Part shown: positions 30,188 through 50,294 of the stretch, piece after piece
How the letters are laid out: every line of letters starts with the position of its first letter
Position numbering within the stretch: the stretch's first letter is position 1
Assembly (NCBI RefSeq): GCF_900111585.1
Contig: NZ_FOHI01000004.1
Coordinates: 186,001 to 250,000 of the forward strand
Reading direction: 5' to 3'
DNA from: Nitrosospira multiformis
GTDB lineage: Bacteria; Pseudomonadota; Gammaproteobacteria; Burkholderiales; Nitrosomonadaceae
DNA length: 64,000 bases
The notes under the pieces: model-generated
What the model was told of the DNA's origin: nothing
The model's database searches: none
What the model saw: only the letters and a program-made list of their open reading frames with translations
Position numbers and translations under genes: made by a program

Positions 30188-30685
30188 ATGATTACGCCAC
30201 TCTTCGCTGTACTGCAACTGGCGCCAATACTTGCGTGCCTATCTGCCGAGGCACTTGGGGATGGAGCCGTTCAACCGGCTCCGATTGATTCGAGGCAAAT
30301 TGCCCTTTCGATGATGTATGAACCCGTATTGTTTAATGATCGGCTATTCCACAAGCAGAACTTTGAACCAGCGAAGGACAAAAAAACAATAGTTGCGAGT
30401 GCGTCCGAGGCTACAAAGCCCGCTACACCTGCGAACCTTGTTCCAGGCAGGGGAATAGTAGTGAAGGTTGATCGGATCAATGCCCTCGTCAGGATAAACC
30501 ATGATCCTATCCCTGCCCTGGATTGGCCCAGGATGACAATGTCTTTTCACCTGAGGGAAAGCGCTTTGGCTGAACAGGTCAAGGAAGGCGATGTAGTGGA
30601 ATTCTTCCTCAAAAAATCAGGTTCCGATTACATCATCGTCAAATGGCGGAAGCAAGCTCCAACAGGGCAAGGGAGTTCGCAATGA
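30188..30685 (+). CDS. CusF-like periplasmic copper/silver-binding protein
   Basis: A 165-residue protein with a signal sequence and an unusually long 70-residue linker before the CusF domain (about residues 86-155). The domain starts GRGIVVKVDRINALVRINH and keeps the CusF metal site: H105, then WPRMTM with W113, M116 and M118, where Cu(I) or Ag(I) is held by His and two Met under a cation-pi Trp. It should hand metal to the CusB-like adaptor. E. coli CusF is about 110 residues, so the N-terminal extension is extra. It overlaps the next gene by four bases. Confidence 0.88.
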   Translation: MITPLFAVLQLAPILACLSAEALGDGAVQPAPIDSRQIALSMMYEPVLFNDRLFHKQNFEPAKDKKTIVASASEATKPATPANLVPGRGIVVKVDRINALVRINHDPIPALDWPRMTMSFHLRESALAEQVKEGDVVEFFLKKSGSDYIIVKWRKQAPTGQGSSQ

Positions 30686-32085
30686 TTCCCATCGGAATCA
30701 TCACTCCGGTGCTTGCCGCCGTCATGCTTTCTACATTGGCCCACGCGGAAGTTTCGTCCCCGGCAGGTAGAGGAACGTCTACACAGGCTGCTCCAGAACA
30801 ATCTGTGGGAACCTTTGTGGCAGCCTATCCCCAAAATTCAGCTTCGCTGGCTACCCTGACCACCCTGATTGCAGAAGCGCTGGAGAACAATCCGGAAATC
30901 CAGGCTGCGCTGCGGGAACGAGAAGCCGCCCAGCAGAGAATATCGCCTGCGGAAGCACTGGAGGATCCTGTTCTGGAAGCAGGGGTGATCAATGCCCCGT
31001 TGGCATCTTCCACTTTTAACCGTGAGGACATGACCATGAAAATGATCGGTCTGTCCCAGCGATTCCCTTTTCCAGGGAAACGCGGTTTGCGTAAAGATGT
31101 CGCCGCCAAGGATGCAGAGGCCATTGAATATGGCTACCAGGAGACCATCAACCGTGTTGTACGCGATATCAAAGTCTCGTATCTCGATCTGGGTCTCACC
31201 CTTGAAATGACCCGCCTGGTCGAAAAAAACAAGCTCATCCTGGAAGAGCTTCTCCACATTGCTGAAGATCACTATGCGGTAGGGCGAGGAAACCAGGCCG
31301 ATGTGCTAAAGGCCCAGACACAGGTATCCGGAATGGCGAATGAACTGCTGAAGCTTGCAAGAGAAAGACCGGTAATCGAAGCCGAGTTGACCCGCGCGCT
31401 CGGCCGGGGCGGGAATAAGCCGTTGCCAGTGCCCGCACCGCCGCAATTGCGTGAGGAAATCCTGGGCCCGGAATCATTGCTTGAGGCCGCCCTGACCCAA
31501 CGCCCACAATTGCTGGCGCTACAAAGCCTTGTTGCCCGCAACGACAAAGCGCTGGAACTTACGCGCAAAAATTATTATCCCGACTTCGACGTGCGTATGT
31601 CTTACGGGCAGCGCGACAACATGCTGGACAACAGCCGGCGACCGGACATGGTGAGTCTGACGGTGGCAATGAACCTTCCCGTTTGGCGTGCCAGCAAACT
31701 CGAGCCACGCGAAGCGGAGTCGCTGGCGATGCGCGATCAGGCGCTGAACACTTATGAAGCGCAACGCAATGAGGTGGCGGCAAGACTGCGTCAGCAGGCA
31801 GCATTGGCCGAGCAAAGCCTGAAGTCCGCGCGGCTCTACCAGACAGCCATTCTGCCCCAGGCACGGCTTACGGTCGAATCCACCCTGGCGGCTTATCGGG
31901 TTAACCGGGTCGATTTCATGACACTGCTCGACAGCCAGATGACAGTATTCAGTTCCGAAATCAGCCTAGCGACGACCATAGCAAGTTACAACAAGGCGCT
32001 TGCGGAGATCGATCTGCTCACTGGTAAATCGCCAGACAACTTATTACCTATCCCCCGGGAGCTCATGTCAAAGGAGCGCATGTGA
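30682..32085 (+). CDS. TolC-family outer membrane channel (CusC-like)
   Basis: About 467 residues from the ATG at 30682, which overlaps the CusF-like stop (ATGA) and follows AAGGGAG. The signal peptide (MIPIGIITPVLAAVMLSTLA, cleavage near AHA) has no lipobox, unlike E. coli CusC. Two outer-membrane-efflux repeats are visible: the first from about LIAEALENNPEIQAALRERE, the second from LLEAALTQRPQLLALQSL, with DFDVRMSYGQRD and a helical tail. It forms the exit duct of the tripartite pump. It overlaps the adaptor gene by four bases. Confidence 0.88.
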   Translation: MIPIGIITPVLAAVMLSTLAHAEVSSPAGRGTSTQAAPEQSVGTFVAAYPQNSASLATLTTLIAEALENNPEIQAALREREAAQQRISPAEALEDPVLEAGVINAPLASSTFNREDMTMKMIGLSQRFPFPGKRGLRKDVAAKDAEAIEYGYQETINRVVRDIKVSYLDLGLTLEMTRLVEKNKLILEELLHIAEDHYAVGRGNQADVLKAQTQVSGMANELLKLARERPVIEAELTRALGRGGNKPLPVPAPPQLREEILGPESLLEAALTQRPQLLALQSLVARNDKALELTRKNYYPDFDVRMSYGQRDNMLDNSRRPDMVSLTVAMNLPVWRASKLEPREAESLAMRDQALNTYEAQRNEVAARLRQQAALAEQSLKSARLYQTAILPQARLTVESTLAAYRVNRVDFMTLLDSQMTVFSSEISLATTIASYNKALAEIDLLTGKSPDNLLPIPRELMSKERM

Positions 32086-33707
32086 AGCTCGCCGTCAAAT
32101 TAATAGCTTTTGTCGCCCTGGCTGCAGCCTTACTTGTCGCCGGGTATTGGTGGGGAGCAAGCCGCCCTTTGACTTCTGCCGCTAAGGCCTCGCGTGTGGT
32201 TTCAGCCGACGGTAAGCCTGAAAGGAAGATTCTCTATTATCGCAACCCCATGGGACTGCCCGACACTTCGCCGATACCCAAAAAAGATCCCATGGGTATG
32301 GACTACATACCTGTTTACGAGGACGAGGAATCCGCTTCCGCCGATGCGGCAGTCAAGATCAGCATCGACAGGATACAAAAACTGGGAGTAAGAACCGAGC
32401 AGGTCTGCATGCGCGAACTCAGTCGCACCGTAAGGGCAGTAGCGACAGTGCAGGCGGATGAACGGCGGCTGCATATCGTGGCGCCCCGGTTCGAGGGATG
32501 GATCGAGCGGCTCCACGTCAATACGACGGGACAAGCGGTTAGAAAGGGTGATCCGTTGATGGATGTGTATAGTCCCGACCTGATCACGGCACAGCATGAA
32601 TATCTCATCGCCCGGAGAGGAACAAGGGACGTGGAGGATGGGGGCCTTGAGGTTCAGGCGGGGATGGAACGGTTGACTGAAAGCGCCTTGCAGAGATTGC
32701 GCAATTGGGATATATCCGGAGCGGATCTGAAGACACTTCAGCAGGAAGGCAAGTTTACACAGTCCATCCTATTTCGTTCTCCGGTAAGCGGCGTGGTTTT
32801 GGAAAAACGGGCGATTCAGGGACAGCGCTTCATGACTGGAGAGATGTTGTATCAGATTGCGGATCTCTCCAGAGTATGGGTGCTCGCAGACGTGTTTGAG
32901 CAGGATCTTGCCACGATACAACGGGGGCAGACTGCCACCATCCGGGTTGAGGCCTATCCGGACAAAGTGTTCCCAGGCGAGGTGACGTTCATATACCCCA
33001 CGGTCACCCCGGAAACCCGTACTGCCAGTGTGCGCATCGAGTTGCCCAATCCGCAAGGGCTGCTGAAACCGGCGATGTACGGGAAAGTGGAGTTCGTTTC
33101 AACCCAACGTAAAGACAGGGTGCTTGCCGTCCCCGAGTCGGCCATACTCGATGCCGGTACCAGGCAGTCTGTGCTGGTGGATCTCGGCGAAGGCCGCTTT
33201 GAACCGAGGCTCGTGAAGCTGGGCAAGCACGCGAACGACTATGTGGAAGTTCTGGATGGACTGAAGGCCGGGGAAATGGTTGTGGTGAAAGCCAATTTTC
33301 TCATCGATGCCGAAAGCAACCTCAAGGCTGCACTGAGCAGTTTTGCCCGCAGCAGTCAGGATTTAGTGCTTGGGGAAGAGGGAGAGAGAGGCCGGATCGC
33401 CTCCGGCTCATCCGGAACTGTACCTTTATCCCCGTCTCCATCTTCATCGAGCCATCGCGGAGAAGGAATCATCGAAGCAATCGATGTGGCCAACACAATC
33501 GTGACGCTTGCCCACCGCCCGATCGCAAGCCTCGGGTGGCCGGCGATGGTGATGGATTTCAAGGTTCTGGACCCCGCGTTACTACGAACGTTGAAACCCG
33601 GCCAGAAGGTTGCTTTCGAGATAACGGAAGCATCGCCGGGCGAGTACGTTATTGTGCGTATACAGCCGCAGGCTGAGGCTGTCGCCGCTCACGGAAAGAA
33701 GCACTGA
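32082..33707 (+). CDS. CusB-like adaptor with N-terminal metal domain and C-terminal CusF domain
   Basis: A 541-residue periplasmic adaptor starting at GTG 32082 inside the CusC-like stop. Order of domains: membrane anchor (about 5-25); a heavy-metal-binding domain (49-80; YYRNPMGLPDTSPIPKKDPM, then MDYIPVYE) with Met ligands; the lipoyl, coiled-coil and beta-barrel core (about 90-420; APRFEGWIERLHVNTTGQ, FRSPVSGVVLEKRAIQGQRF, VPESAILDAGTRQSVLVDLG); a Ser/Pro/Gly-rich linker; and a C-terminal CusF-like domain (about 465-535) with HRPIASLGWPAMVMDF, the same His, Trp, Met, Met set as the stand-alone CusF-like protein. E. coli CusB lacks this last domain. Confidence 0.9.
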   Translation: MKLAVKLIAFVALAAALLVAGYWWGASRPLTSAAKASRVVSADGKPERKILYYRNPMGLPDTSPIPKKDPMGMDYIPVYEDEESASADAAVKISIDRIQKLGVRTEQVCMRELSRTVRAVATVQADERRLHIVAPRFEGWIERLHVNTTGQAVRKGDPLMDVYSPDLITAQHEYLIARRGTRDVEDGGLEVQAGMERLTESALQRLRNWDISGADLKTLQQEGKFTQSILFRSPVSGVVLEKRAIQGQRFMTGEMLYQIADLSRVWVLADVFEQDLATIQRGQTATIRVEAYPDKVFPGEVTFIYPTVTPETRTASVRIELPNPQGLLKPAMYGKVEFVSTQRKDRVLAVPESAILDAGTRQSVLVDLGEGRFEPRLVKLGKHANDYVEVLDGLKAGEMVVVKANFLIDAESNLKAALSSFARSSQDLVLGEEGERGRIASGSSGTVPLSPSPSSSSHRGEGIIEAIDVANTIVTLAHRPIASLGWPAMVMDFKVLDPALLRTLKPGQKVAFEITEASPGEYVIVRIQPQAEAVAAHGKKH

Positions 33708-33708
33708 G

Positions 33709-36700
33709 ATGGTCGGCAATATCATCGAATGGTCGGTACGGCACCTCTTCCTGATGCTGGTCGGGACATTCTTCATAATAGTCTGGGGCGTATATTCGGT
33801 ATGGAAGACACCGGTCGATGCGATTCCGGATCTTTCGGATGTGCAGGTCATCATTTATACGGAATATCCGGGTCAGGCGCCCCAGGTAGTAGAAGATCAG
33901 GTTACCTATCCGCTCACTACTGCCATGCTGAGCGTGCCGAAATCCAGGGTGGTGCGTGGTCTCTCGAGTTTTGGCGTGTCGTTCGTATACGTCATCTTCG
34001 AGGATGGCACAGACATCTATTGGGCACGCTCGCGCGTATTGGAATACTTAAGTTTTGCAGCTGCTCGCCTCCCCGGGAATATAAAACCTTCACTTGGTCC
34101 GGATGCCACCGGCGTAGGCTGGGTTTATCAATATGCCGTGACCGCAAAGAATCGTACCCTCGACGAGTTGCGCGCCATCCAGGATTGGTTCTTGCGCTAT
34201 CAGCTAACCGCGGCGGAGGGCGTGGCGGAAGTGGCCAGCGTAGGCGGTTTTGTACGAAGCTATCAGGTTACAGTGAATCCGCAGCAGCTACAGGCTTACG
34301 GCATCCCGTTAAAGAACGTGTCCCAGGTTATCGCTGCCAGCAATCGCGATGTGGGAGGACGTGTGATCGAGCTCGCGGAGACAGAATATGTGGTGCGCGG
34401 CAAAGGCTATCTGCGCGGGATAGACGATCTCGAAAAACTCGTCGTCAAGGCGGAGAAGGGCACACCGGTGCTGCTGCGCGACATTGCCCGGGTGGAACTG
34501 GTTCCTGAGGAACGTCGCGGCATAGCCGAGCTTGACGGCGAAGGAGAGGCTGTCTCGGGGATTGCGGTGGCGCGGCACGGCGAGCATGCTCTCGATATTA
34601 CACGCAATCTCGAAAAGAAAATTGCCGAGATCATGCCGGCCCTGCCGGAAGGTGTTTCAATCCGGTCCCTCTACGACCGTTCGGACCTGATCCAGCGTGC
34701 CATCATGACGCTGCGTGAGGTGTTGATCGAGCAGATCATTATTGTGGCGCTGGTTTGCGCGGTCTTCCTCATGCACGTGCGGAGCGCCCTGGTGGCGATC
34801 ATCATGCTTCCCATCGGCGTACTCATCGCTTTCGTCGCAATGCGGTTCCTCGGCATCAATTCCAACATCATGAGTCTTGCGGGCATCGCTCTTGCGATTG
34901 CTGAAATGACCGATGCGGCGATCGTCATGATCGAGAATGCGCACAAACATCTTGCGCGCGCTGGTCCGGGAGTTTCAAGTACAGCCCGCAAAGAGGCCGT
35001 CATTGATGCCTGTAGGGAAGTTGGCCCATCGCTGTTCTTCAGCCTGCTGATCATTACCGTGTCGTTTCTGCCTGTATTTGCCCTCGAAGCGCAGGAAGGG
35101 CGCATGTTTCAGCCACTGGCCTATACCAAGACTTTCGCCATGGCGGGTGCCGCCTTGCTTTCGATCACCCTCGTTCCAGCCTTGATCCTGCTTCTGATCC
35201 GCGGTCGCATTCCGCTTGAGCAGGATAATCCGCTGAGCCGTTTCATGATCCGGACCTATCATCCGGTAGTGGGCCGGGTGATGCATTGGAAAAAGATAAT
35301 CATTCTGGCAGCGCTTGCTGTGCTTGGGATAACCATTTATCCCGCACTCAAGCTGGGAACGGAGTTCATGCCGACATTGAACGAAGGCACGCTTCTTTAC
35401 ATGCCAGTGACCTTGCCGAGCATTTCCGTGACGAAAGCGGCTGAGATATTGCAGACGCAGGACAGGATCATCAAAAGCTTTCCGGAAGTGGCATCAGTGC
35501 TCGGCAAAGCGGGACGGGCCAATACTGCAACCGACCCGGCGCCGCTGGAGATGGCTGAAACCATCATCAACCTGAAACCGGAGGCTGAATGGCGCTCCGG
35601 GATGACCGTGGATAAATTGATCGCTGAAATGGACCGGGCGCTCCAGATGCCTGGAGTCAGCAATGCCTGGACCATGCCGATCAAGAACCGGATCGACATG
35701 CTTGCCACAGGCATACGCACGCCCATTGGCGTCAAAGTGTTCGGAAAGGATCTGGAGGAAATCGAAATCCTTGCCAGACAAATCGAGACAGCGATAAAAA
35801 CGGTGCCTGGAACGACGAGTGTCTATGCGGAACGCATTACCGGCGGCTATTACCTCGATATCGAGCCGGACCGCATGGCGCTCGCGCGCTATGGGCTGGC
35901 CGTAGGGGACTTGCTGGACGTAATCTCAGTGGCACTGGGCGGGGAAACGGTAACCACCACCGTGGAAGGACGGGAACGCTTCGCTGTCACCGTGCGCTAT
36001 CCACGTGCATTGCGCAGTGATCCCCAGGCAATCGCTACCCAGGTGCTGATACCCACCATGGACCAGACGATGATCCCGCTCGGGCAACTTGCGCAAGTAA
36101 AACTCCTCCAAGGCCCGCCGAGTATCCGCACGGAGAACGCGCTGCTGTCGGCTTACATCTTCGTCGATATCCGCGACCGCGACATCGGCAGCTATGTCGC
36201 GGAAGCCCAGCAGGCAGTACGTGAGCAGGTGCGGTTTCCGCCGGGGTATTACGCAACCTGGAGTGGCCAGTTCGAATACATGGAACGTGCTGTCGAAAAG
36301 CTGAAGGTAGTCGTGCCGCTCACGGTCCTGATCGTATTCCTGCTTGTATATCTGAACTTTCATCGACTCACCGAGACGCTGATCGTCATGCTTTCGGTTC
36401 CTTTTTCCTTGGTCGGCGGCATCTGGCTCATGTATCTGCTCGGCTACAACATGAGCATCGCAGCGGCGGTTGGCTTTATCGGACTCATCGGTATCGCGAC
36501 TGAAACAGGAATGGTCATGCTCACTTTCCTCGATCGGGCGTTGGCGAGTATCACGGCGACGCGGCAAGCCACAGGCGAAAAAGTTACCGTTGAAGATCTT
36601 TACGAGGCAGTGATCCAGGGCGCGGTATACCGGATACGTCCGGTGATGATGACCATCTCGGGAAGCGTCATCGGACTGCTTCCCGTCATGTTCAGCACAG

Positions 36701-36870
36701 GCACGGGATCCGAGCTGACACGGCACATAGCCACCCCCATGGTGGGCGGAATGGTTTCCACTACAGTACTGACGCTGGTCGTATTTCCGGCCATCTTTGC
36801 TCTGATCAAGGGAATCACTGTACGAGGCGACAGCAAAAGACACGCGCTTACGCGTGCAAGAACACAATAG
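33709..36870 (+). CDS. CusA-like heavy-metal RND efflux pump
   Basis: About 1053 residues from the ATG at 33709, one base after the adaptor stop codon; an upstream start inside the adaptor gene is unlikely. It is the proton-driven inner-membrane pump of the Cu(I)/Ag(I)-type RND family (HME-RND). Features: N-terminal helix, porter domain beginning DAIPDLSDVQVIIYTEYPGQ, YDRSDLIQRAI, the helix-4 relay with conserved Asp in GIALAIAEMTDAAIVMIENA, EFMPTLNEGTLLYMPVTLPS, and the second half with GLIGIATETGMVML. Met residues in the cleft region (for example TMPIKNRIDMLATGIRTPIG) fit soft-metal transport. It is the last gene of the operon. Confidence 0.92.
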   Translation: MVGNIIEWSVRHLFLMLVGTFFIIVWGVYSVWKTPVDAIPDLSDVQVIIYTEYPGQAPQVVEDQVTYPLTTAMLSVPKSRVVRGLSSFGVSFVYVIFEDGTDIYWARSRVLEYLSFAAARLPGNIKPSLGPDATGVGWVYQYAVTAKNRTLDELRAIQDWFLRYQLTAAEGVAEVASVGGFVRSYQVTVNPQQLQAYGIPLKNVSQVIAASNRDVGGRVIELAETEYVVRGKGYLRGIDDLEKLVVKAEKGTPVLLRDIARVELVPEERRGIAELDGEGEAVSGIAVARHGEHALDITRNLEKKIAEIMPALPEGVSIRSLYDRSDLIQRAIMTLREVLIEQIIIVALVCAVFLMHVRSALVAIIMLPIGVLIAFVAMRFLGINSNIMSLAGIALAIAEMTDAAIVMIENAHKHLARAGPGVSSTARKEAVIDACREVGPSLFFSLLIITVSFLPVFALEAQEGRMFQPLAYTKTFAMAGAALLSITLVPALILLLIRGRIPLEQDNPLSRFMIRTYHPVVGRVMHWKKIIILAALAVLGITIYPALKLGTEFMPTLNEGTLLYMPVTLPSISVTKAAEILQTQDRIIKSFPEVASVLGKAGRANTATDPAPLEMAETIINLKPEAEWRSGMTVDKLIAEMDRALQMPGVSNAWTMPIKNRIDMLATGIRTPIGVKVFGKDLEEIEILARQIETAIKTVPGTTSVYAERITGGYYLDIEPDRMALARYGLAVGDLLDVISVALGGETVTTTVEGRERFAVTVRYPRALRSDPQAIATQVLIPTMDQTMIPLGQLAQVKLLQGPPSIRTENALLSAYIFVDIRDRDIGSYVAEAQQAVREQVRFPPGYYATWSGQFEYMERAVEKLKVVVPLTVLIVFLLVYLNFHRLTETLIVMLSVPFSLVGGIWLMYLLGYNMSIAAAVGFIGLIGIATETGMVMLTFLDRALASITATRQATGEKVTVEDLYEAVIQGAVYRIRPVMMTISGSVIGLLPVMFSTGTGSELTRHIATPMVGGMVSTTVLTLVVFPAIFALIKGITVRGDSKRHALTRARTQ

Positions 36871-37312
36871 GGAACTCGAAGAATATGAAACGCGTCCCTA
36901 TTACATGGCAAGCGCGGATCTCAAGGCGCATTGCCAAAGATTGATAAGCGGCTAAGCTATAAGCAGGCTGCGGAGGCAAACCTGGATATGGGAAAGGATC
37001 ACAGAAAGATGATGGGGGAAATGAAACAAATGCATTGACGATGGCGGGCGGGCGACGGTATCAATGATGCGCCAGCGTTGACGCAGGCGATATCCGGCAT
37101 TCGGACTTCTGCTATCACCCATGTTTGCCGGCGCCGCGAGGGTGATGAATCCTCTGTCTGTCGTCAGCGATCTTTGCGGTTGAACTGTATTCCACTCTGC
37201 AATGAGTCCGGGCAGGAGTCTTAGGTACTACTGTACGGACCTTGGTTACGCCCCTTACAATGAGTCCGAGAAGGGGCAAGCCCCTCGGATTCGTTCACCA
37301 GGGAGAGATGTC
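36871..37312. other. gap with His/Met-rich short frame and leader hairpin
   Basis: 442 bases between the pump gene and the lipoprotein. A short frame from about 36931 to 37038 ends in MGKDHRKMMGEMKQMH, a His- and Met-rich stretch, but it has no convincing start site. Two near-identical 'AATGAGTCCG' segments occur at about 37200 and 37259. The second opens an imperfect hairpin (37262-37277 against 37280-37292, two-base loop), which lies just before the ribosome-binding site of the next gene. Confidence 0.4.
37262..37292 (+). promoter_or_regulatory. leader hairpin just upstream of SmbP-like lipoprotein gene
   Basis: GAGTCCGAGAAGGGGC pairs with GCCCCTCGGATTC around a two-base AA loop, with a small bulge and one mismatch. 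It ends 20 bases before the ATG at 37313 and 8 bases before the GGGAGAG ribosome-binding site. It could be a terminator of upstream transcription or a control element; no T-run follows. Confidence 0.4.
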
Positions 37313-37699
37313 ATGAAAAAGCCATTCTCGTGCAGCTTGATCGCTTTTGCTTTCCTCGCGGGATGTTCTACGATGGATTATGCTACAGATGAACATGAGG
37401 ACAAGGCGCTTCAGGAATTGGGACTGGCAGTCAGAAGTGCTGAAAATGAGGACGCAGGAGGCGTTATCGCCCATACTGAAAAAGCGAAGAAACACGTGAT
37501 CGAGGAAAACCACGAACATCCTTATACCCATCCGTTCATATCGATATATGGACAGTTTCCGAAAGCGGAACATGATATGGAAACATTCGAAGAAATGGAT
37601 AAGGCGATCGGGGAAGCGAAAAAAGGGAACTTTACAAGAGCCGCGGAGGCTGCCAGAAGAGCTTCTGTTCATCTGAAACAGAAAGCCCGGTCGAAATAG
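37313..37699 (+). CDS. His-rich SmbP-like lipoprotein
   Basis: About 128 residues from the ATG at 37313, which follows GGGAGAG and opens a lipoprotein signal ([18 protein letters not shown], lipobox LAGC); the in-frame frame runs back to 37202 but without a sensible N-terminus. The mature part is two helical hairpins with the spaced pattern [40 protein letters not shown], and later [20 protein letters not shown]. This resembles SmbP, the small metal-binding protein of Nitrosomonas, but with fewer His. It may buffer copper or other metals in the periplasm. The trehalose synthase gene starts one base after its stop, so the two are probably co-transcribed. Confidence 0.65.
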
Positions 37700-37700
37700 C

Positions 37701-40700
37701 ATGGAACGAGAAGAAGATCCGTTCTGGTACAAGGACGCCATTATCTATGAATTGCACGTCAAGACATTCTTCGACAGTAATGGTGACGGCATAGGAGATT
37801 TTTCGGGCCTGATCTCCAAGCTCGACTATCTGGCGGAACTGGGCGTCACCGCGCTCTGGCTTCTTCCATTCTATCCGTCTCCGGGACGGGATGACGGTTA
37901 CGATATTTCCGATTATCACAGTGTGCACCCCGATGTCGGCACCTTGGAGGACTTTCACCGGTTTATCGCGGAAGCTCATGGTCGAGGTTTGCGCGTAATC
38001 ACGGAACTGGTGCTCAATCATACTTCCGATCAGCATCCATGGTTTCAGGCAGCTCGCCGCGCCCCACCGGGGTCCGTCAAGCGCGACTATTACGTATGGA
38101 GCGACGACAACACCAGGTACAGCGGTGCGCGCAGTATTTTCACGGACACAGAGGGATCCAACTGGGAATGGGATGATGTAGCCAAAGCCTATTACTGGCA
38201 CCGCTTTTTTTTCCATCAACCTGACTTGAATTTTGACAACCCCCATGTCTTTAACGCCATGATGCATGTGATGCGGCTCTGGCTGGATGCGGGTGTCGAT
38301 GGCATGCGCCTGGATGCCATGCCCTATCTGTGCGAGCGCGAGGGGACCAACTGCGAAAACCTGCCGGAGACTCATGCGGTGATCAAACGCATGCGTTCCG
38401 AACTGGATAAACACTACCGCAACCGGATGTTCCTGGCTGAGGCGAACCAGTGGCCGGAGGATGTACGCGAGTATTTTGGTGATGGCGACGAATGCCATAT
38501 GGCTTTCCATTTTCCACTCATGCCGCGAATGTACATGGCTATTGCGCGCGAAGATCGTCACCCCATTGTAGAGATCATGGAGCAGACACCAGACATTCCC
38601 GAGAATTGTCAGTGGGCAGTGTTTCTGCGCAACCACGATGAACTGACATTGGAGATGGTCACCGATCGCGAGCGGGACTATCTTCACCAGACATATGCAA
38701 TCGACCCTCAGGCCCGCCTGCATCTCGGTATTCGACGACGTCTGGCGCCCCTGATGGACAATGATCGGCACCGAATTGAATTGATGAATCTGCTGCTCAT
38801 GACCATGCCGGGGTCGCCCGTGCTCTACTATGGAGATGAGATCGGGATGGGTGATGACCTTCTCCTCGGTGATCGCAATGGTGTGCGCACACCCATGCAG
38901 TGGTCAGGGGGGGCTAACGGCGGGTTTTCAACGGCTGATTCTCAACAGCTTTTCCTGCCGACCATTATCGACCCCGTATATGGGTTTGGTGCAGTGAACG
39001 TGGATTCACAGAGGCGTAATTCGTCATCCCTGCTCAACTGGATGAAGCGCCTGATTGCGATGCGCAAGGCGCACCGAACCTTTGGTCGGGGTACGCTGCG
39101 TTTTTTGCGGCCTGGCAACCGCAAGATTCTTGCCTATCTGCGTGAGCATGAGGATGAAACGATTCTGTGCGTGGCTAATCTGTCCCGAGTCGCACAGCCA
39201 GTAGAACTGGATTTAAGCCAATTCAGGGGAAGAGTACCGGTTGAATTGATGGGTCGCACGCCATTCCCCCCCGTGGGGGAGCTGCCGTATCTTCTTACCT
39301 TGAGTGCTCATGGCTTTTATGCTTTCCGCCTGACAGCCGACGTGGCCGCCCCTGCCTGGCATGAGGAACGGCAGATATCGCCGGATCTGCCTGTCCTTGT
39401 GCTTGTGGAGTCGGGTTGGGGCACACTGTTGAACCGGGATGATGGTAGCGGGGGCATGAAAGACCTGATGGCTCGTCGTGCCCGCCAGCAGCTCGAGGGG
39501 CAGATCATGCCTCGCTTCTTTTATTCCCAATCCTGGTTTTTGATGCGAAACCTTCCCGTCAGAAAATTTGAGCTCGGGGAGATGCACGAGTGGTCGACAG
39601 AGCAAGGAAGCTGGCTGCTAGCCATCGTTGTTTTAACGCTGGCCAATGATGAGGTTTATCGCTTTGCCGTGCCTCTGGCACTGGTGTGGGAGGACGAGGA
39701 TGAGGCGATTGTGAGCACGCTACTGCATGCCACGCTTGCTAAGGTTCGCCGCCGGGAGCGGACAGGCGTGCTGTTCGACGCATTCTGGGATGATGGTTTC
39801 TGCCGCGCCATGGTTTCCAGCATGCATGATGGTTCTGCGCTCCTGTTTAAGCGTGGACAAGTGTCTTTCCATGCAACCACCGCTTTTTCCGGCCCGATGG
39901 TTTCAGGCGCATCAACAACGGTAACGCGGACAGTTTCGGAGAGAGGACGATTGTTCGTGAACATGGGCGACCGACTGGTACTGAAAGGATACCGCTGGCT
40001 TCTTCCCGGCGTGCACCCCGAACTGGAGATGTCGCGTTTTCTGACGGAGACAGCAAAATTTACTCATATGGCGCAACTGGCAGGCACCGTGGAGTACACG
40101 GACGGTGAGGGATGCAATTCCACTCTGGCAATCCTCGAGCACTACGCCGAGAATCAGGGTAGCGCCTGGGCTTATACGCAGGACTATCTGCAACGCTACC
40201 TGGATGAGTGCCGCACACAACAAAAGCGTCCCATTGATTCGCGGCATGTTGCCTACATGACCCTCATCAATACGCTGGGATTGCGTACGGCCGAATTTCA
40301 CCGGGCACTTGCGCCGGATGATGCAGATGGAGCTTTCGGCGTCGAACCCATTACCCCCGAAGATCTTGCGGAGTGGGTGAACACCGTGCGTGCGCAGATG
40401 GATGAAATGTACAAATTGCTGGAAGCGAAATGGCCGGATGTGCCCAAGTCCGTGCAGGGGGCCGGCAATGATCTTTTATCAGCCCGGTCGAAATTCTACC
40501 GTCGCATCACCCGCCTGGCAGCCATACATCCCGAGGCCTTGAAGGCGCGCTGCCATGGGGATTACAGCCTGCGTCAGGTGTGGCTCTCGAACAATGATTT
40601 TCTGATTACGAATTACGGCGGCGGTCCCGAACGCGCATGGCGTGAGCGCCGCTGGAAACAGAGCCCCCTCCGCGATGTGGCAGGCATGCTGTTTTCGTTT

Positions 40701-41003
40701 TCCGAGGTGGCGGCAGTGGCACTGGAGCATGTTACGGATGAATATTCGGAATCAACCGTTATGCTTGCACAACAAGCTGATAAATGGCGAGCGCTTGCTA
40801 GCGCGGATTTCCTCAAAAGCTATCGCAGGGCGATGAAGGGAAATTCCCTGTTCCCCGCTGATACCGGAGTAACCGATGCTTTGGTTACGCTCTTCATGGT
40901 GGAGAAAGCTGTTGCCAGCGTGAGTAACGCGCTCGCGCAACAATCGAAGTCAGTCGATGGAACCATGCAGCGACTGATACGGCTGATGCAGCGTAGAAGG
41001 TAG
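37701..41003 (+). CDS. treS: trehalose synthase fused to a maltokinase-like domain (TreS-Mak)
   Basis: An 1100-residue two-part enzyme. Residues 1-550 are a GH13 trehalose synthase that interconverts maltose and trehalose; the catalytic set is intact: nucleophile D205 (MRLDAMPY), acid/base E247 ([11 protein letters not shown]) and D313 ([10 protein letters not shown]). Residues about 570-1100 match the maltokinase (Pep2) domain that would make maltose 1-phosphate from maltose and ATP. There the kinase loop reads HGDYSLRQV (952-960) where HGD-x-H is usual, and the metal-binding DFEGEP reads NYGGGP (971-976), while the following [10 protein letters not shown] is normal. Phosphoryl transfer may therefore be lost. 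It starts one base after the lipoprotein stop. Confidence 0.92.
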
Positions 41004-42951: not shown

Positions 42952-45900
42952 ATGAGCAATCCGCTTGACCAGCTGTGCGAATTATATGGCGTGCTACCCT
43001 GCTACAGCGATATCTGGGGAAATACCCGCCACACTTCGGAGGACGCAAAGCGCGCTCTACTCGGGGCAATGGGGGTTGCAGCGGCCACGGAAGAGGAAAT
43101 TTCAGCGTCCCTGCACACTTTTATAAGGCGCAAATGGGAGCATGTGTTGTCGCCCGTACAAGTGGTGCGGGAGTGGATGCGACCCTATCGCATTGCAGTC
43201 GCGCTACCGGCCGCCGAGGGCAAGGGGGCCTATCGCTGGCGCTTGTACAGGGAATCCGGGGCCGAAGACTACGAAGAATTTATTCCTGACGGCTTGGAAG
43301 AGGTCGAGCGTTATCGCTTCACCGCTCGCGGCGGTTTCGGCAGTTTCGATGATCCCGGCGCCCAGGAATTCGTGCGGCGAATTCTGGTGCTGGATCTCCC
43401 GGTGGAACCAGGGTACCACCGGCTTTCCATCGAAAAGAGCGATGGCCTCGCTCTGGCTGAAATGCCGTTTATTGTGGCTCCTGCCATTTGTTATTGGCCG
43501 CCAGGTATCGAAGGTGAGAGGCGGGTGTGGGGGCCCGCCCTCCAGTTATATGGTATTCGTTCCCAGCGCAATTATGGCATCGGGGATTTCAGCGATCTTC
43601 GACGCCTGGTCGAATTCTATGCCAGTGCGGGGGGAAGCACGCTGCTGCTCAACCCGCTTCATGCGTTATTTCCCGATGCTCCGGAACACACCAGTCCCTA
43701 CAGTCCCTCCAGCCGCACCTGGTTCAACCCGCTTTACCTGGATGTGGAAGCCATACCCGAATTTGCGGGATGCGAGGAAGCACGCTCGATAGTGCTCGCG
43801 CCGGAATTCCAGGCGCGGCTGCGCGCGCTTCGTGCTACCGAACAGGTGGATTATAGAAGTGTTGCGGAGGCGAAATCGGAAGTCCTCGTCTGCCTGTACC
43901 GCCATTTCCGTAGTACCCATCTAGCGCAAAATACTGGTCGTGCGCGTGCTTTTCGTGTTTTCCAGGCGGAGCACGGCGAGATTCTTCGCAAGCAGGCGCT
44001 GTTCGAGGCGCTTCAGGAATATTTTCGGGCAGGGGACAGCTCTGTATGGGGGTGGCGCGTATGGCCCGAAGCATACCGCGATCCCGCAGCTCCGGAGGTG
44101 GCCGCATTCTGCGAAGCTCATCTCGATCGCGTGGAATATTTCGAATACCTGCAGTGGCAGGTTTCCCTGCAACTGGGAGCGGTCGGCACACGCTCATGGG
44201 AAGTGGGTTTCAACATTGGTTTAATGTTCGATCTGGCGATCGGTGTAGCGGAAGGTGGCGGGGCAACGTGGTCCCGCCGTGAACTTTACGCACTTGAAGC
44301 CAGTGCAGGCGCGCCACCCGATGACTTCAACCGCCTGGGGCAGAACTGGGGCCTGCCGCCCTGGATTCCACATCAGCTCACTGCATCCGCTTATGCACCT
44401 TTCATTGAAGTTCTACGCGCCAACATGCGGGACAGCGGCTCGCTGCGCATAGATCACGTAATGGGCCTGCGCCGCCTGTTCTGGGTAGTGCGCGGGCTGC
44501 CCGCAACGGAGGGCGCGTACATACGCTATCCCTTTGAAGATATGCTGAGCATTCTGGCACTGGAGAGCCAGCGCAACCGCTGCCTGGTGGTAGGTGAAGA
44601 TTTAGGGACAGTACCACCGGAAGTACGCGAAGCTTTGCATCCCGCAAATGTGATGTCCACACGGTTATTATATTTCGAGCGGCGCGACGACGGGCAGTTG
44701 AAGCCGCCGCAGGAGTACCCGGCAAATGCCGTAGTGGCAGTAACAACCCACGACCTTCCGACTCTGGCGGGATTCTGGCAAGGGCTCGATATTGATTTGC
44801 GCGACCGTCACAATCTGTTTCCCGAGGATGAGATGCGGAACAGGCAAATCGTGGAGCGCGCGGCAGACCGTGCACAGCTCCTGGTGGCATTGGAGAGTGA
44901 AGGCGTGTTGCCGTCGAGAGGCGGGCTTCATCAGGTCGGCTTCCCGGAAATGACGGCGGAACTCGCGGCAGCAGTGTACACCTATCTGGCCCGTGCACCG
45001 TCGAAACTTCTGCTGCTGCAACTCGAAGATGGCTTCGGGGTACTTGAGCAACCGAATCTGCCCGGTGCAACAGGAGACACTTACCCATCCTGGCGTCTCA
45101 AACTGCCCCTCAATCTGGAGGAGTGGCAGGGAAGCGCCTGGCTGCAGGGAATAATGCTGGCGTTGCGTCGAGAGCGTCCCTTATCGCAAGCGCCCACCTC
45201 CTCAGAGGGCGAAGTCGCGCAGGACGTACAAGCGCAGATTCCACGGGCAACTTACCGCTTGCAATTGAATCGGGACTTCAATCTGAGGCAGGCAACGGAA
45301 CTGATCCCGTACCTGGATGAGCTGGGTATCAGTCATTGTTATCTTTCGCCCCTCCTCAAAGCGCGCCCTGACAGCGCCCACGGCTATGACGTAACCGACC
45401 ATGGCAGGCTCAATCCGGAGATCACGAGCGCCCGGGACTTCGAACGGTTTGCTGCTGCCTTGAAACGCCATGGAATGAGCCAGATCATGGATGTGGTTCC
45501 CAATCACATGTCCATCACTGGGGCTGATAACGAATGGTGGCTGGATGTACTGGAAAATGGTCCGGCGTCCCGCTTTGCCAGCTATTTTGACATTGACTGG
45601 TATGTGATGGGAGAGCACCTGCCGGGCCAGGTGCTGCTGCCTGTTCTGGGTGATCACTATGGCGCGATTCTGGAGAAGGGCGAACTCAAGCTTGTGTTCG
45701 ACCCCGAACAAGGCTCCTTCAGTGTTTTTTATCATGAGCACCGGTTTCCTGTGGACCCGCGTGAATATCCGCGCATTCTTGGGTACGAACTCGAACGTCT
45801 CGGGATGCGGCTGGGAGAACAGCACCCGGAGTTTCTGGAACTCCAGTCTCTAGTCACGGCGTTTAACCATCTGCCACTGCGTGACCGAGTTTCCCCCGAT

Positions 45901-48147
45901 GCGATCACCGAACGAGCGCGCGACAAGGAGATACACAAACGCCATCTGGCTTCGCTGCTCGTGATGAGCGCAGACATTGCCCAATTCGTTCAGGAGAATG
46001 TGTCCGTTTTCAACGGGGACACGCCGGGGGAGCGACCCAAGAGCTTCGATCTTCTGCATGAACTGCTGAGCCTCCAGGCCTACCGTCTGGCTTTCTGGCG
46101 TGCTGCAGCGGACGAGATCAATTACCGCCGTTTCTTTGATATCAATGATCTGGCGGCGCTGCGCATGGACAACCCGGAAGTGTTCGAAAGCACGCACCAC
46201 CTGATTCGCGAACTGATCGTGCGCGGGTATGTGAGCGGGTTACGCATCGATCATCCGGATGGCTTGTACGCCCCCAAGGAATACTTCGAGCGTCTGCAGG
46301 CAATGGCCGCAGCAGCATTGTTTCCGGGAAAATTAAAAGAGGGAGCCAAGCCGCTCTACATCGTGGCGGAGAAAATACTCGCCTCTCATGAACATCTTCC
46401 GAAGAGCTGGCCCATCCACGGCACTACCGGATACAACTTTGCCGCGGTTTGCTCCGGCCTTTTTGTCGACACTGGCGCTGCCGACCATTTCACCCGTATT
46501 TATGAGCGCTTTATTCGGACACGTTTGGATCTCGGCGCAATGATACGAACGAACAAACACTTGATCATGGAAAGCGCGCTGGTAGGTGAGCTTCAGGTAC
46601 TGGCTATACAATTGGCACGTATTGCCAAAGGTGATCGCCGCACGTGTGATTTTACCTTCAACAGCCAGCGCAGTGCTCTCGCCCAGATTGTCGCCAACTT
46701 TCCTGTCTATCGTACTTATGTATCCGATTGCGAAAGTTCTGCTGATGATGTCCGTTATGTCGACTGGGCGGTTGAGGTAGCCAAGAAGCGCAGCCAGGCA
46801 GTTGACACCACTATCTTCGATTTCGTGCGGGAGGTGTTGCTGGGTCGGCACGCCAGGGGTCAAAGCGAAGCATACAAAAACGCCATATGTGCCTTCGCCA
46901 TGAAGTTTCAGCAGTACACCAGCCCGGTAATGGCCAAGGCAATGGAGGACACGACCTTCTACCAGTATAACCGTCTGGTATCTCTCAACGAGGTCGGCAA
47001 TGAGCCGCAACGGTTCGGCGTGTCGCTCGCAGCGTTTCACCGGGAAAATCAGGAGCGAGCGAGCCATTGGCCGCATGCCATGCTGTCCACTTCGAGTCAC
47101 GACAGTAAGCGGTCGGAAGATGTACGGGCGCGCATAAGCGTTCTCTCCGAAATACCCGATCAGTGGGCACGGACTCTTAAGCGATGGAACAGGCTCAATC
47201 GCAGCAGTCGTCGGGAGTTGGGCAACACTTATGCGCCGAGCCGGAATGACGAGTACCTGCTATACCAGATATTGCTGGGCATATGGCCTTTTGACACACC
47301 GCACGGCGAGGAATTGGCAGAGCTGTCCGACCGCGTAGTTGCCTACATGCGCAAGGCGGCGCGAGAAGCGAAGGTGAGCAGCTCCTGGATCAACCCTGAT
47401 AGCGAATATGAGGCAGCAATGCAGGACTTCGTGCATGCGCTTCTCTCCGAGCAGCCCAACAATCTGTTCCTGCGCGACTTTCTGCCTTTCCAGCAGCAGA
47501 TTGCATGGGCGGGCGCCTTCAACAGCTTGTCACAAGTGTTACTCAAACTTACGTCACCAGGAGTACCGGATATCTACCAGGGCAACGAAACCTGGGACTT
47601 CAGTCTCGTGGATCCGGACAACAGGCGTCCTGTGGACTATACGGGGCGTCGCAGGTCCTTGCAGGCCATCCGCTCGATGCATGCTGAAGAAGGCCCTGGC
47701 GCCTGCGCGCAGCATCTGATGGAGAATCTGCGGGACGGCCGAATCAAGCTCTATCTGAGCTGGAAAGCGCTCACATTCCGTCGCGAGCACGAACAGTTTT
47801 TCCGCGAGGGCGACTACCTGCCGCTAAAAGCGTATGGGGACTGTAGTGAGCACGTATGCGTGTTTGCACGGCGTCGGGAAAATGAAATTCTTGTCGTTGC
47901 CGTACCGCGATTGCTCGGCAGGCTCATCGGAGAACAACACAGGTTCCCAGTCGGTAAATCCATCTGGACCGACACCTGGGTGGAACTGCCTTCAGACGAG
48001 TTGCGCGAGAAGTGGATCAATGTGTTGACTGGCGAGATCCTTACCACGCAGAGGACGGAGGAGGCGTGCAGGAGGTTTGGGTTGGCTCACCTTTTCGGGA
48101 CGTTTCCTTATGCATTGCTATCCCCTTTCGAGCCGACGACGGGATGA
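42952..48147 (+). CDS. 4-alpha-glucanotransferase/maltooligosyltrehalose synthase fusion (MalQ-TreY)
   Basis: A 1731-residue chain carrying two enzymes. Residues 1 to about 745 are a GH77 amylomaltase that moves glucan chains between maltodextrins; nucleophile D501 (SLRIDHVMGLRRLFWV), acid/base E549 (VVGEDLGTVP) and D601 (TTHDLPTLAGFW) are all present, as is an N-terminal MalN-type region. Residues 764-1731 are a GH13 TreY that turns the reducing-end bond of maltodextrin into a trehalose bond; it opens ATYRLQLNRDFNLRQA and keeps D1100 (GLRIDHPDGLY), E1140 (IVAEKIL) and D1384 (SSHDSKRSED). The two joined at about 745-763 by a short polar linker. Both halves are full length. Confidence 0.93.
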   Translation: MSNPLDQLCELYGVLPCYSDIWGNTRHTSEDAKRALLGAMGVAAATEEEISASLHTFIRRKWEHVLSPVQVVREWMRPYRIAVALPAAEGKGAYRWRLYRESGAEDYEEFIPDGLEEVERYRFTARGGFGSFDDPGAQEFVRRILVLDLPVEPGYHRLSIEKSDGLALAEMPFIVAPAICYWPPGIEGERRVWGPALQLYGIRSQRNYGIGDFSDLRRLVEFYASAGGSTLLLNPLHALFPDAPEHTSPYSPSSRTWFNPLYLDVEAIPEFAGCEEARSIVLAPEFQARLRALRATEQVDYRSVAEAKSEVLVCLYRHFRSTHLAQNTGRARAFRVFQAEHGEILRKQALFEALQEYFRAGDSSVWGWRVWPEAYRDPAAPEVAAFCEAHLDRVEYFEYLQWQVSLQLGAVGTRSWEVGFNIGLMFDLAIGVAEGGGATWSRRELYALEASAGAPPDDFNRLGQNWGLPPWIPHQLTASAYAPFIEVLRANMRDSGSLRIDHVMGLRRLFWVVRGLPATEGAYIRYPFEDMLSILALESQRNRCLVVGEDLGTVPPEVREALHPANVMSTRLLYFERRDDGQLKPPQEYPANAVVAVTTHDLPTLAGFWQGLDIDLRDRHNLFPEDEMRNRQIVERAADRAQLLVALESEGVLPSRGGLHQVGFPEMTAELAAAVYTYLARAPSKLLLLQLEDGFGVLEQPNLPGATGDTYPSWRLKLPLNLEEWQGSAWLQGIMLALRRERPLSQAPTSSEGEVAQDVQAQIPRATYRLQLNRDFNLRQATELIPYLDELGISHCYLSPLLKARPDSAHGYDVTDHGRLNPEITSARDFERFAAALKRHGMSQIMDVVPNHMSITGADNEWWLDVLENGPASRFASYFDIDWYVMGEHLPGQVLLPVLGDHYGAILEKGELKLVFDPEQGSFSVFYHEHRFPVDPREYPRILGYELERLGMRLGEQHPEFLELQSLVTAFNHLPLRDRVSPDAITERARDKEIHKRHLASLLVMSADIAQFVQENVSVFNGDTPGERPKSFDLLHELLSLQAYRLAFWRAAADEINYRRFFDINDLAALRMDNPEVFESTHHLIRELIVRGYVSGLRIDHPDGLYAPKEYFERLQAMAAAALFPGKLKEGAKPLYIVAEKILASHEHLPKSWPIHGTTGYNFAAVCSGLFVDTGAADHFTRIYERFIRTRLDLGAMIRTNKHLIMESALVGELQVLAIQLARIAKGDRRTCDFTFNSQRSALAQIVANFPVYRTYVSDCESSADDVRYVDWAVEVAKKRSQAVDTTIFDFVREVLLGRHARGQSEAYKNAICAFAMKFQQYTSPVMAKAMEDTTFYQYNRLVSLNEVGNEPQRFGVSLAAFHRENQERASHWPHAMLSTSSHDSKRSEDVRARISVLSEIPDQWARTLKRWNRLNRSSRRELGNTYAPSRNDEYLLYQILLGIWPFDTPHGEELAELSDRVVAYMRKAAREAKVSSSWINPDSEYEAAMQDFVHALLSEQPNNLFLRDFLPFQQQIAWAGAFNSLSQVLLKLTSPGVPDIYQGNETWDFSLVDPDNRRPVDYTGRRRSLQAIRSMHAEEGPGACAQHLMENLRDGRIKLYLSWKALTFRREHEQFFREGDYLPLKAYGDCSEHVCVFARRRENEILVVAVPRLLGRLIGEQHRFPVGKSIWTDTWVELPSDELREKWINVLTGEILTTQRTEEACRRFGLAHLFGTFPYALLSPFEPTTG

Positions 48148-48188: not shown

Positions 48189-50294
48189 TCACGCCTGCCG
48201 CTGCAAAAGCACCAGTGACCGGGGTGCGACTGACAAAGTGGATCCAGCTTCGAGCCCGGGCTTATCTGCTGCATTCTCTACCCAGCCCTCGTTGGTGTCG
48301 AGTATCTTCAACCAACGTAGCCCCCAGTGGTTCGGGGGCAGAACGAAATCGATCGCCTCGAAATGCGCGTTGAAAATCAGGTAGAAGCTGTCATCCTTCA
48401 CTGGCTCCCCTCGAGCATTGGGATTCGGGAAACTGTCTCCGTTGAGAAAAATTCCCAAGCTTTGAATTCCCCCATTCCCCCATAATTCCTCGCTCGCCTG
48501 TTCTCCCATGTAATTGAACCACGCAATATCGTCTTGGCTCCCACCGTGGATGGGTTGCCCCTGAAACCACCGTCGCCGGCGGAAGACCGGGTGATCATGG
48601 CGGAAGCGAGTGAGGCGTCTGGTGAATTCCTGTAAACCGATATCCACCTTCCCCCAATCCACCCAGGAAATTTCGTTGTCCTGGCAGTACGCATTATTAT
48701 TTCCCTGCTGGGTGCGACCTGATTCATCCCCTGCGAGCAACATGGGCACACCCTGTGACAATATCAGGGTGGCCAGGAAATTGCGCTGCTGCCGGGCGCG
48801 AAGCGTAAGCACTTCCCTGTCATCCGTAGGCCCCTCGACACCGCAATTCCAGGAACGGTTGTCGTCTGTGCCATCCCTGTCGTCTTCGCCATTGGCCAGA
48901 TTGTGTTTTTCGTTGTAAGACACCAGATCACGCAGTGTGAAACCGTCGTGCGAGGTGACAAAATTGATGCTTGCAAAAGGATGACGCGAATTCCCCTCGT
49001 AAAGGTCTGAGCTTCCGGTAAAGCGGTAAGCGAATTCACTTAAAGTAGGTTCCTGAGTGCGCCAGAAATTGCGAATACAATCCCGGTACTTACCGTTCCA
49101 TTCAGACCAGCCTGATGGGAATTTCCCCACCTGATAACCGCCTTCTCCCAGGTCCCAGGGTTCCGCGATCAGCTTGACCTGATTTGTAACAGGATCCTGC
49201 TGGATAATGTTGAAAAATGCATTCAGCATTTGCACTTCATGCAGTTCGCGTGCGAGCGCGGATGCAAGATCGAAGCGGAAGCCATCGACGTGCATTTCCA
49301 GCACCCAATAGCGAAGCGAATCCATGATCAGTTGCAGCACATGTGGCTGCCTCATGTTGAGGCAGTTGCCTGTGCCTGTGTAATCCCTGTAATAACGCCG
49401 ATCCTCCATAAGCTGGTAATAATAGGCGTTGTCGATTCCCTTCAGGCATAACACTGGCCCGAGATCGTTGCCTTCCGCAGTATGGTTGTACACCACATCG
49501 AGGATAACCTCGATGTCGGCTTGATGCAGAGCCTTGACCATTTGCTTGAATTCGGCGCTCGCGGCCCCCGGACGCTTGTCCGCGGCGTAGGCGCTATGGG
49601 GAGCAAAATAGGCAATGGAGTTATAACCCCAGTAGTTGTGCAAACCCTGGTCCAGAAGATGTTTGTCCTGCACAAAGTAGTGCACTGGCAGCAGCTCGAC
49701 AGCAGTGACTCCAAGCTGTTTCAGATACTCGATGGAGGCGGAGTGTGCGAGACCCGCATAAGTGCCCCGCAGTTCAGGAGGTATGTCCGGATGTTGTGCC
49801 GTGAAGCCCTTGACGTGCAACTCATAAATGACTGTTTCGTGCCAGGGGCGCTGGAGTTGACGATCGCCGGACCAATCGAAAAACGGTTGATGAACGATGC
49901 TGCGAGGCATGAAAGGCGCGCTATCCTTATCATTCCGTGCATCGCGGTCATCGAAAAGATAGGGGAATACAGCTTCATCCCAGGTAATGTCGCTATCGAT
50001 CCCTTTTGCATATGGATCGAGCAGCAGCTTCGCGGGATTACAGCGATTGCCTTGCTCAGGGGCCCACGGCCCATGCACTCGAAAACCATAGCGCTGTCCA
50101 GGCTCTACGCCACGCAGGTAGCCGTGCCAGCAATATCCTGTCACCTCGGGCAAATCCACCCTGGTTTCACGACCGGCTTCATCGAACAGGCACAGTTCGA
50201 CGCGTTCCGCCACCTCGGAAAACAAGGAGAAATTGGTTCCCGCTCCATCGTATGTTGCACCAAGGGGATAGGGTGTGCCTGGCCAGATTTTCAT
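48189..50294 (-). CDS. glgX: glycogen debranching enzyme GlgX
   Basis: A 701-residue GH13 isoamylase-type enzyme that cuts alpha-1,6 branches of glycogen already trimmed by phosphorylase. An N-terminal carbohydrate-binding beta-sandwich (GTPYPLGATYDGAGTNFSLF) is followed by the barrel with D342 (GFRFDLASAL), E378 (LIAEPWDLGEGGYQVG) and D450 (TSHDGFTLRDLVSYNEKHN). Length and motifs are standard. The gene is convergent with the MalQ-TreY gene (41 bases apart) and diverges from the small lipoprotein gene at 50380; its promoter must lie in the 85 bases between them. It would feed linear maltodextrins to MalQ and TreY. Confidence 0.93.
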   Translation of the reverse strand: MKIWPGTPYPLGATYDGAGTNFSLFSEVAERVELCLFDEAGRETRVDLPEVTGYCWHGYLRGVEPGQRYGFRVHGPWAPEQGNRCNPAKLLLDPYAKGIDSDITWDEAVFPYLFDDRDARNDKDSAPFMPRSIVHQPFFDWSGDRQLQRPWHETVIYELHVKGFTAQHPDIPPELRGTYAGLAHSASIEYLKQLGVTAVELLPVHYFVQDKHLLDQGLHNYWGYNSIAYFAPHSAYAADKRPGAASAEFKQMVKALHQADIEVILDVVYNHTAEGNDLGPVLCLKGIDNAYYYQLMEDRRYYRDYTGTGNCLNMRQPHVLQLIMDSLRYWVLEMHVDGFRFDLASALARELHEVQMLNAFFNIIQQDPVTNQVKLIAEPWDLGEGGYQVGKFPSGWSEWNGKYRDCIRNFWRTQEPTLSEFAYRFTGSSDLYEGNSRHPFASINFVTSHDGFTLRDLVSYNEKHNLANGEDDRDGTDDNRSWNCGVEGPTDDREVLTLRARQQRNFLATLILSQGVPMLLAGDESGRTQQGNNNAYCQDNEISWVDWGKVDIGLQEFTRRLTRFRHDHPVFRRRRWFQGQPIHGGSQDDIAWFNYMGEQASEELWGNGGIQSLGIFLNGDSFPNPNARGEPVKDDSFYLIFNAHFEAIDFVLPPNHWGLRWLKILDTNEGWVENAADKPGLEAGSTLSVAPRSLVLLQRQA

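Follow-up and report, generated by a model that had tools for sequence, protein, structure and literature searches.

The window, a stretch of 64,000 nucleotides from the soil ammonia oxidizer Nitrosospira multiformis, carries a fusion of trehalose synthase (TreS) to a maltokinase (Mak) domain, and comparison of its sequence with active relatives makes it a well-supported prediction that the Mak half is a dead kinase. Our preferred reading, to which we give a probability of roughly 0.7, is that this is a recurrent TreS-fused pseudokinase, in which TreS works as a reversible isomerase within a TreZ/TreY operon and the Mak half is kept as a folded partner. Kinase loss is apparently tied to a cell that lacks GlgE, the enzyme that would use the kinase product.

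An intact TreS half joined to an altered Mak half

The fusion and the features within it are as follows.

37701-41003, + strand: TreS-Mak fusion ORF, 1100 aa
37701..39332, + strand: TreS half (trehalose synthase / maltose glucosyltransferase, GH13), residues 1-544, intact
39363..41000, + strand: Mak (maltokinase) half, residues 555-1100, predicted pseudokinase
39936..39953, + strand: former P-loop SERGRL (746-751); xEQSNT or a similar sequence is usual in intact relatives
40554..40571, + strand: catalytic loop HGDYSL (952-957), with the base Asp still present and Ser in place of the His that contacts maltose
40611..40628, + strand: NYGGGP (971-976) replacing DFEGEP; Mg-binding Asp lost
40902..40952, + strand: C-terminal helix (1068-1084); maltose-binding YExxYExxxRxxW signature gone

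Residues 9-544 match TIGR02456 (TreS) over the whole domain at 915 bits (curated cut-off, 678). The TreS half also aligns end to end with the solved TreS structures 5x7u and 5h2t, sharing RLDA, AEANQWP and RNHDE, which we take to be the catalytic motifs of TreS. The Mak half is homologous to TIGR02457 (maltokinase TreS_Cterm) at residues 587-1083, where it scores 336 bits, below the cut-off of 375, and it matches the PDB maltokinases 4u94, 5jy7 and 4o7o; the label of the curated model for this domain is putative maltokinase only. It is the single Mak match in its own genome, and its closest named relatives are from Nitrosospira multiformis strains (86-90% identity), other Nitrosospira and Nitrosovibrio. 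An AlphaFold2 model of the Mak half, with 8 input sequences, was poor (mean pLDDT, 39).

A first-pass annotation had read HGDYSL at residues 952-957 and NYGGGP at 971-976, with [10 protein letters not shown] intact after it, and all three are present in the translation. It had taken the changes as loss of a metal-binding Asp and Glu. The Asp is indeed replaced, by N971; the Glu was misassigned, for in the solved maltokinase, as passages of PMC4306142 describe it, magnesium is coordinated by Asp322, which binds both ions, and by Gln310, with Glu324 of DFE uninvolved and Asp305 the putative base. The D339N substitution in M. tuberculosis Mak, at the equivalent of Asp322, is reported there to abolish activity (PMC4306142).

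Two further sites separate the window protein from maltokinase (EC 2.7.1.175). Its base Asp is present as D954, but the Ser/Asn of the P-loop have become G749 and R750; R750 is fixed in 19/19 rows of the window's clade, while 96% of intact rows (n=57) have Asn. The maltose pocket has also changed. Eight maltose-contacting residues of M. tuberculosis Mak are named in PMC6520443, and two are kept in the window protein (W222 and D322, mapped, like H324, through the PDB alignment of the Mak half). The other contacts, H324, Y370, E430, Y433, R438 and W441, have become S, E, S, N, Q and S; the last five of these were placed by position and by YExxYExxxRxxW spacing, not aligned directly to M. tuberculosis Mak. 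Because six of the eight published contacts are changed, maltose binding by the Mak half is unlikely. The suggestion in the first-pass annotation that the enzyme interconverts the two sugars or binds maltose is accordingly halved: the TreS half appears intact for the former, and the latter loses its footing.

Other active-site residues have persisted. All 19 clade rows still have the base Asp and the DVA Asp, along with the Lys that binds phosphate and the Gln that contacts Mg, a retention for which plain decay fails to account. The unbroken HGD loop, base Asp and Lys would also suit a domain that is still a kinase, with another acceptor, as in glucosamine kinases, or with changed metal use, as in CASK, a Mg-independent kinase. 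Mak paralogues with another acceptor do exist (PMC6520443), but those described in that source retain their catalytic and DFD loops. Here the P-loop and the Mg Asp are lost together, and the D-to-N change is one that inactivates M. tuberculosis Mak (PMC4306142); we consider a surviving kinase very unlikely.

A second alternative is that the cleft has been retooled. Residues that all rows of the clade share, and that intact Maks seldom or never have, are grouped around the former active site (RGR(L) at 748-751, W766, W961, N971, Y972, G973 and W980), and this clustering, with the base Asp and Lys kept in all 19 rows, favors a ligand sensor in which the former ATP/maltose cleft binds maltooligosaccharide, trehalose or Mg-free nucleotide, for example, to gate TreS. 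However, the known sugar contacts are gone, and since sampling of the clade is young (19 rows), fixation may partly reflect shared descent; we judge such a sensor improbable. A sensor of maltose itself is not favored, as the residues of the maltose pocket are lost.

The altered Mak half across the family

We surveyed 125 genomes of the family, followed by 349 more of the order and 229 more of the class. A Mak domain occurs in 41 of the 125 family genomes, of which 18 belong to the window's genus, 22 to group g3, which is probably Nitrosomonas, and 1 to g2. All 18 fusion-bearing genomes of the window's genus (Nitrosospira-like) have lost the Mg-site Asp, to N (17) or H (1), and have G for the DFE Glu; because the loss is common to 18/18, sequencing error or a one-strain oddity is ruled out.

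Loss takes another form in g3. The catalytic loop could be read in 17 of the 18 GlgE-negative genomes of this group, and the base is N in 14, H in 1 and D in 2 (G036 and G051, where other residues are lost), so that the clade is mostly HGN, having lost the catalytic Asp rather than the Mg-site Asp. One GlgE-negative g3 genome, G026, has its TreS-Mak frame split in two (L056), a break that could mark a pseudogene or stem from misassembly. In a tree from which the motif columns were excluded, the window's genus and g3 form separate, well-supported clades on long branches; this is a quick tree with SH-aLRT support only, and the join of L108/L109 with L125 is flagged as a possible long-branch artefact. 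The different lost residues and the separate clades suggest separate losses of the kinase in two genera of the family, through different residues. An altered row from G354 falls in the window's clade with 100% support, its nesting inside the window's genus having support of only 90.

We also searched for active homologues with Asn and Gly at the two sites. Among 57 Mak rows from GlgE-positive genomes, with three altered paralogues set apart, none had Asn at the first and none had Gly at the second. In one GlgE-positive genome (G342, L085), the only fetched Mak has HSD, not HGD, in its catalytic loop.

Selection on the Mak half

For the Mak half, dN/dS has a median of 0.186 among genomes of the window's genus (81 pairs, 15 of 18 genomes) and 0.137 in g3 (9 pairs; rows from 9 of 17), compared with 0.16, 0.16, 0.195 and 0.267 for intact Mak halves in four groups (1, 1, 4 and 6 pairs); these figures are rough, because a simple counting method was used and many of the pairs have a dS close to 1; pairs with dS outside 0.05-1.6 were excluded. 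TreS halves range from 0.02 to 0.10 (0.061 in the window's genus). The dead Mak half is under purifying selection of ordinary strength and, as a kinase-family domain without its catalytic motifs, is a predicted pseudokinase.

These values bear on whether the Mak half is a neutral remnant that has merely been decaying since GlgE was lost. Several different losses across GlgE-negative lineages would be consistent with such decay, as would the higher dN/dS of Mak than of TreS, though intact fusions have the same gap. Yet the dN/dS lies inside the range of intact Mak halves, the Mak frame is open in 18/18 genomes of the genus, the only split frame seen being that of G026 in g3, and in three GlgE-positive genomes the altered form stands beside an intact Mak. 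A neutral remnant is therefore distinctly unlikely.

Gene neighborhood and the trehalose operon

The genes around the fusion are as follows.

30188-36870, upstream of TreS: Cus-type copper/silver efflux operon (CusF, TolC-like, CusB, CusA)
37202-37699: small metal-binding protein SMBP (PF16785), ending one base before the TreS start codon
41026..42897, + strand: TreZ, malto-oligosyltrehalose trehalohydrolase (TIGR02402, 711 bits)
42952..48147, + strand: MalQ-TreY fusion, 4-alpha-glucanotransferase and malto-oligosyltrehalose synthase (NF011077, 2615 bits; TIGR02401, 978 bits; TIGR00217, 479 bits)
48189..50294, - strand: GlgX, glycogen debranching enzyme (TIGR02100, 997 bits)

The downstream genes are enzymes that convert glycogen to trehalose, and GlgC, GlgA, GlgB and an alpha-glucan phosphorylase are encoded elsewhere in the same genome. 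A 2011 survey reportedly dealt with links between glycogen and trehalose. Another GH13 enzyme (552 aa), encoded on contig 16 of this genome (L001, 1432-3090), adjoins an amino-acid transporter and falls under every curated cut-off shown. On the upstream side, CusB is fused at its C-terminal end to a CusF domain. Of the seven named relatives, three (L039-L041) also have SMBP ahead of TreS, and in L042-L045 it was not found.

TreZ is the next gene after the fusion in 18/18 genomes of the window's genus, and the five GlgE-positive family genomes have GlgC and then GlgX in that place. For the 18 GlgE-negative g3 genomes, the stretch read contains TreZ in 12, GlgC before its end in 5 and neither in 1. 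Several g3 genomes have a second GlgC-like gene directly 3' of TreS-Mak (L133 in G010, L134 in G020), which is 37-39% identical to the GlgC of the window's genome. As for the other altered fusions, TreZ lies nearby in G143, G148 and G158 and is absent from the stretch read in G235 (a short contig), G488 and G595.

Three GlgE-positive genomes, G354, G156 and G200, have an intact separate Mak adjoining GlgE and, elsewhere, an altered TreS-Mak with TreZ and a MalQ-TreY frame after it, the same order that the window has (read on the minus strand in G156); the altered Mak of G354 has ERGRLLVN and NFGGEP as its motifs. This arrangement argues that the dead form is not solely a leftover of GlgE loss and that it probably accompanies the trehalose operon.

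The link with GlgE

A missing glgE was what the first-pass annotation had expected of a lost pathway, and none was detected: PF11896 (GlgE) gave no match in the window's genome (1 of 14 control genomes was positive), and a whole GlgE protein used as probe gave a sole, weak match, inside TreS. We also probed 18 GlgE-negative genomes with the GlgE protein in case the Pfam model had overlooked it, and no real match appeared; two of them gave 18-bit matches inside TreS, and both positive genomes were recovered. GlgE is present in 5 of the 125 family genomes, all five with intact Mak motifs, and in none of the window's genus (0/18 for the fusion-bearing genomes). Together with the lack of any active-type Mak row bearing Asn or Gly, this absence lends weight to the pseudokinase reading that the first-pass annotation had put forward.

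We scored Mak rows for nine residues, the eight published maltose contacts and the Mg Asp. Rows from GlgE-positive genomes scored 9 (55 rows), 8 (1) or 4 (3), and those from GlgE-negative genomes scored 2-7 (41 rows) or 9 (3). By genome, a Mak retaining eight or more of the nine residues was found in 54/54 GlgE-positive versus 3/44 GlgE-negative genomes (98 genomes; Fisher's p ~2e-24, kinship ignored). The link is weaker after related genomes are discounted. With paralogues left out and the published residue set, 4-5 of 6 independent pairs went the same way and 0 the opposite way (median p 0.0625); the two Asp alone gave p 0.25, and a stricter residue set, picked after seeing the data, gave p 0.031. 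With the three altered paralogues included, the median p was 0.5 for the two Asp and 0.0625 for the stricter set. The tree requires at least 7 or 8 state changes, depending on definition.

Several records were left out of these counts: weak TIGR02457 matches (G168, G191, G308, G338, G472, G526, G544, G571, G580, G628 and G640), fragments (G153, G222 and G235), the shorter of two G108 stretches (L036) and GlgE matches below cut-off (G174 and G685). G660, with GlgE and no Mak match, was uncounted; the split-frame G026 was omitted from the pair tests and the nine-residue scoring, and G670, at a contig end, from the scoring. Two GlgE-positive genomes, G390 and G361 (L083 and L084), have two tandem TreS-Mak fusions between GlgE and GlgC, each with all nine residues.

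A simple rule, that without GlgE the kinase dies, is incomplete, as exceptions occur in both directions. G354, G156 and G200 have an altered TreS fusion despite being GlgE-positive, and G290, G444 and G490 keep an intact Mak with all nine residues without a GlgE match. GlgE may be unassembled in G290 (85% complete; contig of 3,862 bases) and G490 (93% complete; 7,965 bases). In G444 (97% complete), GlgX, TreS-Mak and GlgB are adjacent on a contig of 85,520 bases, and GlgE was not found.

A predicted pseudokinase partner for TreS

From these observations we infer the following scheme, including its order of events. The Mak half would be unable to hold Mg-ATP or to seat maltose in the known way and would make no maltose 1-phosphate. 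Without phosphorylation maltose would not be drawn off, and TreS would only equilibrate trehalose and maltose, acting as a reversible isomerase encoded within an operon for the conversion of glycogen to trehalose (GlgX, TreY, TreZ, MalQ). Fused or bound maltokinase is described as pulling maltose away and driving TreS from trehalose to maltose (PMC11046441, PMC8084333), and PMC8084333 reports a roughly 7-fold rise in trehalose when TreS/Pep2 is deleted in P. aeruginosa. Against our preferred explanation, a Streptomyces pep2 mutant is reported to have slightly lower, not higher, trehalose (PMC5042117).

Kinase activity would be useless or harmful in a cell that has no GlgE, or in one whose GlgE is supplied by a separate Mak, because maltose 1-phosphate would have no outlet, and it would have been lost several times. 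By the accounts given in PMC5042117 and PMC11046441, respectively, a Streptomyces glgE mutant is slowed by maltose 1-phosphate build-up, with the pep2 mutant healthy, and the compound is toxic in M. tuberculosis; such harm would give a reason for selection against the kinase where GlgE is missing. The Mak cap is described as docking on the TreS C-terminal domain (PMC11046441). Packing of the Mak half there, and a need for it in TreS stability, assembly or regulation, would explain why a Mak fold, as predicted here, is kept.

A bolder version, which we think improbable, is a repeated switch in bacteria from TreS-maltokinase to TreS-pseudokinase, turning a one-way GlgE feeder into a reversible enzyme of a TreZ/TreY operon, with the Nitrosospira cleft (RGR, new Trp, NYG) rebuilt as a ligand site that regulates TreS. 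Should such a switch exist, one could tell from a handful of residues and from the adjacent genes which TreS fusions use up trehalose and which provide it.

Comparison with known systems

TreS-Mak fusion genes are easily taken as a sign of the GlgE route. Here the fusion does not imply that route, and in this nitrifier family most fusions look kinase-dead. Our literature search, mostly outside subscription papers, found no published report of a TreS-fused pseudo-maltokinase, and for GlgE/Pep2 in Nitrosomonas the only review passage found concerns sucrose synthase. For a small-molecule kinase, the separate losses form a clean natural series with which the function of its tethered partner could be put to the test.

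The nearest known systems are the bifunctional TreS-Mak/TreS-Pep2 enzymes of P. aeruginosa and Estrella, which, as far as PMC8084333 and PMC11046441 describe them, have the same fusion order, an intact TreS and a full-length Mak. They make maltose 1-phosphate and accompany GlgE, whereas in the window protein the Mg site, the P-loop and the maltose pocket are gone, and its genome has no GlgE. Mycobacterial maltokinase Mak/Pep2 (4u94, 4o7o and 5jy7; PMC4306142) is a homologous kinase domain, from which the window protein differs in having Asn at Asp322/Asp339, a SERGRL P-loop and six of eight maltose contacts changed. The actinobacterial glucosamine kinases are likewise Mak homologues with a changed sugar pocket; unlike the window protein, they keep their catalytic loops, are active on glucosamine and are described in passages of PMC6520443 without a TreS fusion. 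Finally, like the pseudokinases reviewed in PMC7586955 and PMC12599244, the Mak half is a member of a kinase-fold family that lacks catalytic motifs and is kept by selection; unlike those signaling relatives of protein kinases, it derives from a small-molecule (maltose) kinase and is fused to a metabolic enzyme.
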